The notes beneath the pieces are model-generated. The model saw nothing but the letters and a program-made list of their open reading frames with translations. It was not told the DNA's origin and made no database searches. Source: a virus. From it: a stretch of DNA of 28,000 nucleotides. Location: positions 1-28,000 of the IMG/VR virus record IMGVR_UViG_3300025623_000022; one strand, 5' to 3'. Below are positions 1 to 13,682 of the stretch, in pieces (position 1 is the stretch's first letter; each line of letters starts with the position of its first letter). The position numbers and the translations under genes were made by a program.

Positions 1-147
1 TCCACTTTGCTTGCTGATGTTCAGCCAAGTCATATCTCGCAGTACGTTCACAAGAAGGGGTATGTCGGCAACCGGCACCGCTCGGTGCTGTCCAACGCTT
101 ACCAGTTGGCGAACCTCAAGGGTTGGTGCGAGATAAACCCGACTGCC
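1..147. repeat. Terminal direct repeat, left copy
   Basis: Matches 27854-28000 over all 147 bases except positions 15 (t here, a at the right end) and 21 (t here, g at the right end). Both differences fall in third codon positions of the integrase and are silent (Ala and Val codons). The simplest reading is a circular or circularly permuted genome assembled from a slightly mixed population; a tandem prophage is the alternative. Confidence 0.93.
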
Positions 148-684
148 CCATATCAGAAGATCGTCCACAAGGCCAAAGAACCCAAGCGCGTTGTCGAGGT
201 ATTTCTTGAGGACGTTTTTAAGATACGCGAAGTAGCGATTCCAGAGGTGCAGCGGTTGATGGATATTGCATGGCGCACCGGCTTACGCAAGAGCGATCTA
301 CTCTACCGCTTGCTTTGGGATAACTTGAGCGACACGCATCTGCGCGTTGAAATTGGCAAGACCCGCCGCCCTCTATTGTTCGTGTTAGATGACGCACTGC
401 GCGAGGTTATCGAAAGTTGCCCCAGGCGATCTGAGTTTATTGTGACGCACAGCGGAGGCGAACCGTGGAGCGTGTCGGGATTTGATTCGACTTGGCGGCG
501 CACCCGCGCACGCAGCGGTGTGGAGAATTTTGAGTTTAACGATCTACGCCGCTTTGCGGCCCAGGAAACTGTGCGGATCACCCGCGATGAGGCGCAGGCG
601 CAGAAACTATTGGATCACACGCACAAAAGCACTACGCGGATATATCTGGCAGGGATGGCGATGGAGGTGCAGCCGCTACGCTAA
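1..684 (+). CDS. int: Tyrosine integrase, C-terminal part (continues from 28000)
   Basis: Carries the core-binding and catalytic domains of a phage tyrosine recombinase that joins attP to the host tRNA gene. There is no real start here: the frame is open from base 1 and matches 27854-28000, so the 5' part is at the other end of the window. In joined numbering (320 residues) the catalytic set is R189 (TGLRKSDLL), K213 (IGKT), R276 (NDLRR), H299 (LLDH) and nucleophile Y308 (TTRIYL). The histidine usually found three residues before the second arginine (HxLR) is asparagine 273. The stop overlaps the convergent DUF4224 gene by 9 bases. Family assignment is firm; activity with the Asn is not shown by sequence. 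Confidence 0.93.
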   Translation, partial: STLLADVQPSHISQYVHKKGYVGNRHRSVLSNAYQLANLKGWCEINPTAPYQKIVHKAKEPKRVVEVFLEDVFKIREVAIPEVQRLMDIAWRTGLRKSDLLYRLLWDNLSDTHLRVEIGKTRRPLLFVLDDALREVIESCPRRSEFIVTHSGGEPWSVSGFDSTWRRTRARSGVENFEFNDLRRFAAQETVRITRDEAQAQKLLDHTHKSTTRIYLAGMAMEVQPLR

Positions 685-2131: not shown

Positions 2132-2847
2132 TAGTTGTTCTCCTGTACAAGTTCGCCATCAACAACATCATTAAGTTCGTCGCGTTTCATTCGGTAAGCA
2201 TCCCGCACCATCTCTTTTGCCTTGTCAGGCAGGGTTTTCGCATCGTGAATAATCGCTTTTAGATCGGCCTCGCTTTGGGCCTCGTCAATGCGCACCATCA
2301 GGTCATCGGCTGAAACCTTGGCGATGCGGTCCTTGAGGTCAGGCTTTTTGACTACCTCGGCCTTGACCGGCGCGGCATCGAAATCACCAACTTCCTCTGG
2401 TGTGTAAATGCCAACCGCAACACCGGGATAAACTGTGCGGATGCCCTCGCTGATGACCCTTGATCGAAGCATTGCGCGTGGGTACTGTTTCCAGGTTTGC
2501 TTGCCGGTCAGCCCTGCTGCTTTGGCACGATCCATCGTCCACTCAATCTCCAACTCACCCCCTTGTGGGTGGCTGAACAATCCGGCCACCTTCTTGTCGG
2601 TGTATGAAGTCCATTTAACAACGCCGCCTGCCGCTTGAAAGCGTGCAAGCATGGCATCGGCCTTGAGTGCGGGTCGGCCCTGGATAACGTGGTAGTCGCG
2701 TGCCGCTTGCGCCGGGTGCGCGCCCTCAGCCTGCGCAACCAACATAAGGGCAACCGCTTGCTCGACGGTCTTGATGCCAAACAATCCGCTTGCAGCAATG
2801 CGCTCTCCCATTTTCTCAATGTCTTGATAAGGTACTAATGTGCTCAT
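2131..2847 (-). CDS. RecT-like single-strand annealing recombinase
   Basis: 238 residues. The N-terminal 150 residues have the features of a phage annealing protein: AVALMLVAQAEGAHPAQAAR, HVIQGRPALKADAMLARFQAAGG, and a basic segment around KQYPRAMLRSRVISEGIRTVYPG. It is followed by a charged helical tail. It would anneal complementary strands exposed by the YqaJ exonuclease, giving recombination-dependent replication and circularisation. The ATG overlaps the stop of the exonuclease gene (ATGA) and is preceded by AGGAGAG, so exonuclease and annealase are coupled. Context makes the role secure; the exact subfamily is less certain. Confidence 0.83.
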   Translation of the reverse strand: MSTLVPYQDIEKMGERIAASGLFGIKTVEQAVALMLVAQAEGAHPAQAARDYHVIQGRPALKADAMLARFQAAGGVVKWTSYTDKKVAGLFSHPQGGELEIEWTMDRAKAAGLTGKQTWKQYPRAMLRSRVISEGIRTVYPGVAVGIYTPEEVGDFDAAPVKAEVVKKPDLKDRIAKVSADDLMVRIDEAQSEADLKAIIHDAKTLPDKAKEMVRDAYRMKRDELNDVVDGELVQENN

Positions 2848-4134: not shown

Positions 4135-4755
4135 TTAAAACAGCGTTTGCTTTGCCTTTACCACACCAATCAGGTCGGCATCACCGTTAATCTTTTGAAG
4201 TTGCGGGGTCCAGATTGGGTTTAGTGCTTTCAAAAACTTCTGATCACCTTCCAACACCAGTTGCTTAAAGGTCGCCGCGTTTTCATCCTTCAATCTAACC
4301 ACAACATAATCGCCATTCTCAGGTTGGCGTGCGGGGTCGATAAGGATGGTGTCACCGTCTTTAAAGTCAGGCTCCATGCTGACCCCGGATACTTTGAGTG
4401 CAAACATTCTTTTTTCCTTGTCTTTAACCTTGACGGCCCAAGGTATCCGCTCATCAACAGCAACAAACTCCGCGATCTCAGTCCATGCGCCTGCTTGCAC
4501 CCAACTAATAACAGGCACGCTGATGATTGCGTGGTCGACTTTCTCTGTGCTTTTGGGTTCACCTTCACCAGTGGCAAGCCACCGGATATTGACCCCTAAG
4601 CAGTCAGCCAAGGTTTGTGTGTGTTGTGATGATTGGCTACCTCGCATCTCAAGGTTTGAAATTGCGCTTTGACTGATGTCAGCGCACTTAGCGAGTTCGG
4701 TCTGGCCCATCCCCGCCAATCTCCTCGCCTCTTTTAGCCTCTCTCCAAGACTCAT
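4135..4755 (-). CDS. CI-like repressor, HTH plus S24 self-cleavage domain
   Basis: 206 residues from the ATG at 4755, which has GGGGAT eight bases upstream; the frame is open to 4869 but the extension is hydrophobic and crosses the promoter region. Residues 1-60 form an XRE-type helix-turn-helix (MGQTELAKCADISQSAISNL). Residues 80-206 are an S24/LexA-like peptidase: cleavage bond A88-G89 (WVQAGAW), nucleophile S126 (GVSMEPDF) and K164 (AATFKQLV). It should hold the lysogenic state by binding TACCAC operators and be destroyed after DNA damage through RecA-stimulated autocleavage. It is divergent from the Cro-like gene. Confidence 0.93.
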   Translation of the reverse strand: MSLGERLKEARRLAGMGQTELAKCADISQSAISNLEMRGSQSSQHTQTLADCLGVNIRWLATGEGEPKSTEKVDHAIISVPVISWVQAGAWTEIAEFVAVDERIPWAVKVKDKEKRMFALKVSGVSMEPDFKDGDTILIDPARQPENGDYVVVRLKDENAATFKQLVLEGDQKFLKALNPIWTPQLQKINGDADLIGVVKAKQTLF

Positions 4756-4815
4756 GCTTATATCCCCACAGTTTTTTTTTACAGGTACTTTAAGTAGAAC
4801 GACCAAACTGCACAT

Positions 4816-4831
4816 TACCACAAATGGGGTC
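4816..4831. promoter_or_regulatory. Repressor operator, right distal (TACCAC-N4-GGGGTC)
   Basis: TACCAC followed by a four-base spacer and GGGGTC. The inner 14 bases are close to a palindrome (ACCACAAATGGGGT). It lies between the divergent repressor and Cro-like genes, 48 bases from the stronger site at 4864, the arrangement expected of a pair of right operators. The right half matches the ideal GTGGTA in 4 of 6 bases. Confidence 0.5.
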
Positions 4832-4854
4832 GATAATAGACTAATAAGTTGGGT

Positions 4855-4883
4855 TTGCAGAGCAATCACAAAAGTGGTATTCT
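4855..4883 (+). promoter_or_regulatory. Rightward early promoter of the Cro-like gene
   Basis: TTGCAG (4855-4860) and TATTCT (4878-4883) are exactly 17 bases apart. The predicted start of RNA falls 7-8 bases after the -10 element, on or next to the A of the ATG at 4891, so the message should be leaderless. The operator at 4864-4879 fills the spacer and touches the -10 element. Confidence 0.65.
4864..4879. promoter_or_regulatory. Repressor operator, right proximal
   Basis: Read on the minus strand it is TACCACTTTTGTGATT, matching the left operator TACCACAAGAGTGATA at both half-sites with a different four-base spacer. It lies inside the rightward early promoter, so binding excludes RNA polymerase. 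It is the best match to the left operator in the window. Confidence 0.62.
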
Positions 4884-11979: not shown

Positions 11980-12663
11980 ATGGTAGACGAATCAACAGAC
12001 ACAAACGACACGCAGACCGAACCAAGTACAACCGAAAGCAAAAGCATCGAACCCGCTAAGGTATTTACCCAGGATGAGGTGGATGCAGTTGTCAAGAAGC
12101 GTCTGGAAAAGCGTAATCGAGAAGTTGAGCGCAAGTTTGATGGTGTAGACCCGGAGGAATATCGCGCAATGAAAGCCGCGCAAGATGCCGAAGAAATGGA
12201 ACGGCAAAAGGAGCGTGGCGACTTTGAGAATGTGATGAAACAGACTGTCGAGAAGTGGGAAGTCAAAACTAATGCCCTTCAGGACGAACTGCGCCGGGTT
12301 AAGGTAGATGGCGCGCTGTTATCTGCCGCAAACCGGGGCAAGGCGATCAACGCCGAACAGGTGGCGAACCTGTTGCGATCCAACGTGCGCATGACAGAGG
12401 ATGGGTCGGTTGAGGTTGTCGATAACGGTGGAACCGCCCGGTATGACGATCACGGCACACCACTGACCCCGGATGCCTTGGTAGACGAGTTTTTGTCAGG
12501 AAATCCGCACTTTGTTGCCGCAAACCCCGGTGGCACTGGTTCGCAATCGTCTGTCGGTGGCGGGTTGAGCAAGGAGAAGGATATTATGGAAATGAGCCAT
12601 GAGGAATTCGGGGAATATCGAAAGACGGCGTACAAAAAGCCAGGGTATATCAAGATGGCTTGA
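11980..12663 (+). CDS. Capsid scaffolding protein
   Basis: 227 residues, highly charged and helical. An acidic, Thr-rich N-terminus is followed by VFTQDEVDAVVKKRLEKRNR and a long coiled coil (EEMERQKERGDFENVMKQTV), then a disordered glycine-rich stretch and a short basic C-terminal segment (YRKTAYKKPGYIKM) of the type that grips coat protein. The position just before the major capsid gene is standard. It would template the prohead and leave before packaging. Its stop codon overlaps the -35 element of a promoter for the capsid gene. Confidence 0.87.
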   Translation: MVDESTDTNDTQTEPSTTESKSIEPAKVFTQDEVDAVVKKRLEKRNREVERKFDGVDPEEYRAMKAAQDAEEMERQKERGDFENVMKQTVEKWEVKTNALQDELRRVKVDGALLSAANRGKAINAEQVANLLRSNVRMTEDGSVEVVDNGGTARYDDHGTPLTPDALVDEFLSGNPHFVAANPGGTGSQSSVGGGLSKEKDIMEMSHEEFGEYRKTAYKKPGYIKMA

Positions 12664-12687
12664 CATGGCCCTGAGAGGGCGTACAAT
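12660..12687 (+). promoter_or_regulatory. Strong sigma-70-type promoter for the major capsid gene
   Basis: TTGACA (12660-12665, exact consensus) and TACAAT (12682-12687, one mismatch) are 16 bases apart. The -35 element overlaps the scaffold stop codon. The spacer holds a perfect inverted repeat, GCCCT-GAG-AGGGC (12668-12680), which could be an operator or a 3' hairpin of the scaffold message. RNA should start near 12694, giving a leader of about 150 bases. Confidence 0.7.
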
Positions 12688-12693
12688 CGCCAC

Positions 12694-12799
12694 TACTGGG
12701 TTTTTATACAGTACCCCTAGACCGGGCTAGGTAAACCTCTCGGGGTCGTCAGACCGCGCTGACGTTAATCAACCGGGGTGGTTGGCACCGTGGCCGACC
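12694..12799 (+). ncRNA. Structured leader with three ACCGNG-loop hairpins
   Basis: The capsid leader contains three hairpins with unrelated but complementary stems and the same hexaloop pattern: CCTAG-ACCGGG-CTAGG (12716-12731), CGTCAG-ACCGCG-CTGACG (12747-12764) and GGTTGGC-ACCGTG-GCCGACC (12780-12799, one G-T pair). A rival hairpin, TCAACC with GGTTGG (12769-12785), excludes the third. An additional stem, TACTG with CAGTA, lies at 12694-12713. Different stems presenting one loop suggest repeated binding of a protein or RNA. No T-run is present. I do not recognise a known RNA family. Confidence 0.6.
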
Positions 12800-12845
12800 T
12801 TTGCAAACACGGGTCTTTTAACCGTTATTGCATTGGAGGCCGTTA

Positions 12846-13682
12846 ATGGCAAGCACCACCACAACCACTCTCGACGATCTGTTTACCAGTATCGTTCGTG
12901 AAGCAATTTTCACCGCTCAAGAATCATCGCTTGTGCGTAATCTCGTCACCACCTACGACATTTCCGGTGATGACGGCAAAGCAATCCAAGTGCCCATCTA
13001 TCCCGAAGTGTCTGCCGCCGCGCTGACAGAGGGATCGGATATGTCCTCGACTGCCGTTTCAACGTCGAGCGTCACCATCACTGCCGCTGAGGTTGGTGTG
13101 CAGGCTGTTCTCGCTGATCTCGCCGCTAAATCTTCTGCTCGTAATATCGCCGCTGATCTTGGTAGGGTCTTGGGCGAGGCAGTTGCCAAAAAGATGGACG
13201 AAGATTTGATCGCCCTGTTCGATGGTTTCTCAACTTCCTTGGGCGCGACTACCACCGAACTGACTGCCGCACATTTCTTCAATGCCGCCGCGCAGTTGGA
13301 CAACGCGAACGCACCTGGCAAGAAATTCGCTGTTCTGCATCCGTATCAGGTTTACAACATGAAAGCGAGCCTGACCAATACCTTTGCGAACCCGAACGGT
13401 GGCGACCTACAGAACGAAGCCATGCGTAACGGCTACGTTGGAACCCTTGCAGGGATCGACATTTTTGAATCAGCCAACATTACTGTTGATGGTTCTGGCG
13501 ATTCCAAGGGCGCAGTGTTCGTGCCTCAAGCGATTGGCCTTGCCGTCAAGTGGGATGTCAATATTGAGCCGCAGAGGGATGCGTCGATTCGTGGTTGGGA
13601 ACTCAACGCCACTGCCTGTTATGGAGTGAGCGAGTTGAAGGACGCCTACGGAATCGAAATGTACTTCGACGCCGGTCTCTAA
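12846..13682 (+). CDS. Major capsid protein
   Basis: 278 residues from the ATG at 12846, which has GGAGG seven bases upstream. It follows the scaffold gene. The N-terminal region (LDDLFTSIVREAIFTAQESS) forms the arm; a long middle helix (AKSSARNIAADLGRVLGEAV) and AVLHPYQVYNMKASLTNTF, NGYVGTLAGIDIFES and WELNATACYGVSELKDAYG match HK97-fold coat proteins of this gene order. It builds the icosahedral shell. Its own strong promoter and structured leader imply separate, high-level and probably regulated expression. Confidence 0.9.
   Translation: MASTTTTTLDDLFTSIVREAIFTAQESSLVRNLVTTYDISGDDGKAIQVPIYPEVSAAALTEGSDMSSTAVSTSSVTITAAEVGVQAVLADLAAKSSARNIAADLGRVLGEAVAKKMDEDLIALFDGFSTSLGATTTELTAAHFFNAAAQLDNANAPGKKFAVLHPYQVYNMKASLTNTFANPNGGDLQNEAMRNGYVGTLAGIDIFESANITVDGSGDSKGAVFVPQAIGLAVKWDVNIEPQRDASIRGWELNATACYGVSELKDAYGIEMYFDAGL

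Follow-up and report, generated by a model that had tools for sequence, protein, structure and literature searches.

In a group of uncultured phages that includes the one analysed here, the major capsid gene is preceded by what is most safely described as a conserved structured 5′ leader of its mRNA, with a dedicated promoter and a design based on tandem pseudoknots. Comparison of related sequences reveals a promoter-like site, conservation of the leader, compensatory changes in its predicted pairings and mutual exclusion between the second stem of its last predicted pseudoknot and a further hairpin. The leader is probably composed of three tandem pseudoknots followed by this hairpin, which competes with the last of them. 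Such an arrangement suggests that coat-protein output is controlled at the level of RNA, and the leader most likely sets capsid expression post-transcriptionally.

The window (the whole stretch of 28,000 nucleotides that was analysed) comes from a tailed dsDNA phage with terminase, portal and scaffold genes. Integrase and CI-like repressor genes are also present (7-684, plus strand, and 4135-4869, minus strand), from which the phage looks temperate. An association between the leader and the integrase was considered and rejected: the leader-bearing long contigs G000-G002 carry an integrase, and so do some leaderless contigs. All features of the window described below are on the plus strand. The gene of a 227-aa head scaffolding protein (11980-12663; phrog_206 and phrog_2303) is followed by that of the 278-aa major capsid protein (12846-13682; Phage_capsid_4, phrog_267/544 major head protein), whose Shine-Dalgarno sequence GGAGG (12835-12839) is separated by 6 nt from the ATG at 12846. 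The original prediction had assigned to the capsid gene its own near-consensus promoter, and this holds. The predicted sigma-70-type promoter (12660-12687) is composed of TTGACA (12660-12665), a 16-nt spacer and TACAAT (12682-12687), with 11/12 matches, and is the sole sigma-70-like site reaching this value in the 28-kb window. Its −35 box overlaps the end of the scaffold gene (ORF 11980-12663), the TGA within TTGACA being the scaffold stop codon.

Three hairpins with stems of 5, 6 and 7 bp and the loops ACCGGG, ACCGCG and ACCGTG had been described downstream of this promoter, and all three are present. They correspond to hairpin 1, CCTAG-A[CCGGG]CTAGG (5 bp, 12716-12731), hairpin 2, CGTCAG-A[CCGCG]CTGACG (6 bp, 12747-12764, from the hairpin scan and the pairing model), and hairpin 3, GGTTGGC-A[CCGTG]GCCGACC (7 bp including one G·U pair, 12780-12799). 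Upstream of them, a 5′-terminal hairpin TACTG...CAGTA (12694-12713) lies where the transcript is predicted to begin, or close to it. No other ACCGNG hairpin with a stem of at least 5 bp exists on either strand of the window, and ACCG-type units show no excess elsewhere in it; shuffled 28-kb windows contain 0.22 such hairpins per strand, and 1 of 100 shuffled windows contained three like-looped hairpins of any kind within 100 nt. The leader folded alone is not unusually stable (z = −1.19, single-sequence folding not significant), and the minimum-energy fold of the single leader sequence lacks the three hairpins as originally drawn. The case for structure is thus comparative, not energetic.

A search with the capsid protein returned 80 loci, to which additional scans added more. 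The leader was recovered as 18 distinct sequences from 28 contigs, each directly upstream of a capsid gene, and the three hairpins are conserved in these relatives. The capsid genes behind the leader encode proteins with at least 84% identity to that of the window, where measurable. No leader of this kind was found in capsid relatives at 60-77% identity, in which the scaffold-capsid gap is 14-63 nt in nearly all cases; in the cultured Pelagibacter phages HTVC202P, HTVC111P and HTVC026P, the two genes are 15-18 nt apart. The leader is therefore not essential to the capsid family, since these more distant relatives manage without it.

The promoter is found at the same position, with 10-12 of 12 matches, in every ACCG leader for which upstream sequence is present. 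About 6-7 nt 3′ of the −10 box, the leader starts either with the 5′-terminal hairpin, in one subclade, or with the first pseudoknot (PK1, see below), in the other; the hairpin is missing from the L007/L012/L013 subclade. Even in L009, in which a reverse-strand ORF of 142 aa (2169-2597, minus strand) separates the scaffold stop from the leader, promoter and leader still adjoin the capsid gene. The position, kept across relatives, provides good, though indirect, evidence for promoter and leader functioning together with the capsid gene as one unit. A terminator-like sequence, AAAGGC...GCCTTTTTTT, is located 3′ of the scaffold gene of L009. The leader of L010 contains about 90 nt extra, with hairpins, between the 5′ hairpin and PK1 (2760-2870), and its 5′ hairpin is followed by CTTTTTT. 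The tree of the leader and that of the capsid gene are discordant (18 aligned loci, alignment A2), which suggests that recombination has occurred between leader and capsid gene.

The hairpins, although real and conserved, are an incomplete description of the leader. Each A-CCGNN loop is complementary to a strand located 3′ of its own stem, so that each of the three units could fold as an H-type pseudoknot whose first loop is a single base (PK1 to PK3), and a fourth hairpin (H4) competes with the last of them. The pairing model was based on alignment A2 of the 18 distinct leaders, in which 98.2% of the cells are paired under the full model; sliding the partners by 1-3 columns reduces pairing to 24-49%. 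Seven pairs exhibit double changes; the cells with a double change number 36, compared with 9.1 ± 2.3 in shuffles that ignore relatedness. Double changes were also recounted on a tree built from the leader after removal of the variable paired columns. Each varying pair had between one and four such events, the pairs concerned lying in stem 1 of PK1 and PK2, stem 2 of PK1, stem 1 of PK3 (three events) and H4 (one event); for the outermost pair of PK2, some of the events end in a U-U mismatch. The covariation that had been read from a single molecule is supported by compensatory changes between species, both in the alignment and on the leader tree. Moreover, RNAalifold, run without input structure, chose stem 2 of PK1, hairpins 2 and 3, and H4.

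Support is strong for PK1. Its stem 1 (hairpin 1) is paired in 100% of the cells, with double changes from U-A to C-G and from C-G to U-A. Among the pseudoknot helices, its stem 2 (12722-12743), predicted from covariation and RNAalifold between the loop CCGGG (12722-12726) and CTCGG (12739-12743), has the best support: at one pair, C-G, G-C and G-U each occur in six sequences, and another pair is G-C, G-U or A-U. Support is weak for the second stem of PK2 (12754-12776), between the loop CCG (12754-12756) and CGG (12774-12776), which is 88% paired, with mismatches, and would have 3 bp in the window and 4 bp in most relatives. In PK3, one pair of stem 1 (hairpin 3) is C-G, G-C or U-A among relatives, and stem 2 (12788-12812) would join the loop CCGTG (12788-12792) to CACGG (12808-12812) by five invariant Watson-Crick pairs. 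Since this helix never varies it displays no covariation, and its support comes from the pattern seen in PK1 and PK2. The predicted complementarity is well above that of shuffles for PK1 and PK3, and weak for PK2. A CCG and CGGG core is invariant across all three units, whereas the stem 1 sequences and the length of the PK1 spacer vary. The PK2 pattern had eight other viral matches, all in unrelated sequence and none in a capsid leader, which is about the chance expectation, and the PK3 pattern had no match in bacterial genomes.

Hairpin H4 (12802-12832), present in the RNAalifold consensus, would pair TGCAA (12802-12806) with TTGCA (12828-12832) and ACGG (12809-12812) with CCGT (12822-12825), and has a single double change, which turns C-G into U-A in L013, L015 and L017. 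The CACGG strand has two conserved partners, the PK3 loop and H4, and because both need this strand, stem 2 of PK3 and H4 are predicted to be mutually exclusive. Both are conserved, yet stem 2 of PK3 and the inner part of H4 are invariant. Another alternative fold, TCAACC/GGTTGG, had been proposed to compete with the third hairpin. This pairing exists in the window and finds no backing in relatives, where it is 91% paired and is broken in some of them, with no compensatory change and no excess over shuffles.

H4 ends 2-3 nt 5′ of the Shine-Dalgarno sequence. In many of the minimum-energy folds, the partner of GGAGG is the 3′ arm of hairpin 3, and sequestration of the Shine-Dalgarno sequence by this arm was considered. 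It was rejected, as the pairing did not exceed that of upstream-shuffled controls (0 of 8 leaders); shuffled upstream sequence pairs the Shine-Dalgarno sequence about equally or more, which leaves this reading unsupported. The Shine-Dalgarno sequence is less paired than in the upstream-shuffled versions in L007 (0.17 vs 0.70) and L004 (0.46 vs 0.75), and the predicted structure seems to leave it open in some leaders.

Unrelated leader sequences occupy the same place in two related lineages of the same capsid family, L021/L022/L023 and L034/L035. In L021 (2850-3000), downstream of a weaker promoter (score 9.5), a candidate pseudoknot GTCGG-TTCT-CCGTC-CCGGC-ATAAGTT-GACGG overlaps the hairpin AAGTTGA/TCAACTT; the candidate pseudoknot of this lineage was equalled in 2 of 60 shuffles. 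In L034 (2848-2990), a 12/12 consensus promoter overlaps the scaffold stop, and a hairpin CGGGTAAT...ATTGCCCG (−19.7 kcal/mol) followed by TTTTTT is located just 5′ of the capsid Shine-Dalgarno sequence. This hairpin and its U tract look like a terminator or a transcription attenuator; a simple terminator scan, covering ungapped short-loop stems only, did not list the hairpin. As elements comparable to the ACCG leader, the leaders of L021 and L034 are suggestive only.

We tentatively propose the following mechanism. The dedicated promoter would start a capsid mRNA with a structured leader of about 150 nt, which would fold up to three tandem H-type pseudoknots with the common core A-CCG / CGGG. 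A choice would follow between closure of PK3 (CCGUG with CACGG) and formation of H4 (ACGG/CCGU, UGCAA/UUGCA) beside the ribosome-binding site. The repeated invariant core may serve for recognition, most likely by a protein, and either its occupancy or the order of folding could tilt the balance between PK3 and H4 and so set the amount of capsid protein made per mRNA, through translation and/or mRNA lifetime. We rate somewhat below even the chance that capsid output per mRNA is set in this way, with a core-recognising factor or the order of folding shifting the choice between PK3 and H4. That the CCG/CGGG core is invariant while the first stems drift speaks for a factor that recognises it.

A passive role of the leader is nearly as likely: the structured 5′ end would slow mRNA decay and insulate the Shine-Dalgarno sequence from what lies upstream, giving a constant high output with neither factor nor switch. 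The demand for capsid protein is high. A structure that starts only a few nucleotides (about 6-7) 3′ of the −10 box, whether with the hairpin or with PK1 according to the subclade, and a Shine-Dalgarno sequence that is less paired in several leaders than in their upstream-shuffled versions would both be consistent with such a role. However, a passive leader requires neither an invariant CCG/CGGG core in three units whose stem 1 drifts, nor a second conserved partner for the CACGG strand. In a more elaborate scheme, which we consider unlikely, the array of three pseudoknots, with its common A-CCG/CGGG core, would be a cooperative sensor coupling capsid synthesis, via PK3 and H4, to a phage or host signal, e.g., the assembly state; the leaders of L021 and L034 may then serve the same purpose.

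Binding of free capsid or scaffolding protein to the repeats, with repression of capsid translation, was suggested in the original prediction and appears improbable. The location of the repeated sites between the scaffold and capsid genes, with no excess elsewhere in the window, would suit such an autogenous operator, and the pseudoknot operator of T4 gene 32 offers a precedent (PMC3014915). However, relatives with 60-77% capsid identity have homologous capsid and scaffold proteins but no leader, and the putative RNA binding would therefore have to be subclade-specific. The other function suggested at first, an RNA packaging signal, is unlikely because the source is a tailed dsDNA phage and the same relatives are leaderless. 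We give still less credit than to the autogenous operator to a riboswitch, in which the pseudoknots would bind a small molecule and the choice between PK3 and H4 would be the expression platform. The predicted mutually exclusive folds beside the Shine-Dalgarno sequence and the terminator-like hairpin and U tract at the equivalent position in the related lineage L034 are what such a device might display, but the leader matches no Rfam riboswitch, even at permissive thresholds, and its conserved core bases are mostly in predicted helices, with no conserved unpaired pocket. Least probable of all is a DNA-level element (a repeated operator or a recombination site) with hairpin-like palindromes, which would suit a region that may recombine, as the discordant leader and capsid trees suggest, but is disfavoured by the compensatory changes, with G·U intermediates, in the loop-to-downstream pairing of PK1 stem 2 and by the position between promoter and start codon.

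The original prediction knew of no described family matching this leader, and Rfam 15 indeed gave no match to it at gathering or permissive thresholds. The closest design is that of the STAXI RNA, a motif of unknown function made up for the most part of two or, more often, three tandem copies of a pseudoknot; it is listed for Enterobacteriales near DNA-handling genes (SSB, topoisomerase, antirestriction, integrase), with frequent UUCG tetraloops (PMC2864571). The STAXI model RF01728 had no match at E up to 5 in the leader of the window or at E up to 10 in nine loci. Unlike STAXI, the capsid leader has ACCGN(N) loops that would form stem 2 and a promoter in front, and it always adjoins the capsid gene. 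The E. coli rpsO operator has an alternative hairpin form. This translational operator of S15 contains a pseudoknot (PMC3014915), but differs from the capsid leader in belonging to a ribosomal protein gene and in having a single pseudoknot; the Rfam S15 leader model did not match the capsid leader. The glutamine riboswitches carried by aquatic phages, which belong to known glnA-type classes (PMC9004378), are likewise structured cis-regulatory RNAs in phages, and these classes had no match in the capsid leader (Rfam).

The open-access literature yielded no paper describing tandem pseudoknots ahead of a phage capsid gene, and phage structural genes under structured leaders have rarely been described. 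The capsid leader would add a new family to RNA annotation, and a conserved tandem-pseudoknot leader with its promoter and a competing hairpin would provide a compact, testable model of how a phage sets its coat-protein output. According to a review of T4, the gene 32 pseudoknot is perhaps the only viral pseudoknot involved in autoregulation of translation; in T4, T2 and RB69, this operator consists of one pseudoknot 67 nt upstream, followed by A+U-rich repeats bound by gp32 (PMC3014915). An H-type pseudoknot in a phage mRNA leader is thus common to both systems, being predicted in the case of the capsid leader, which differs in having three tandem units and a competing hairpin. We place it among the structured leaders of phage mRNAs, as a form of its own that belongs neither to the STAXI type nor to the T4 gene 32 type.
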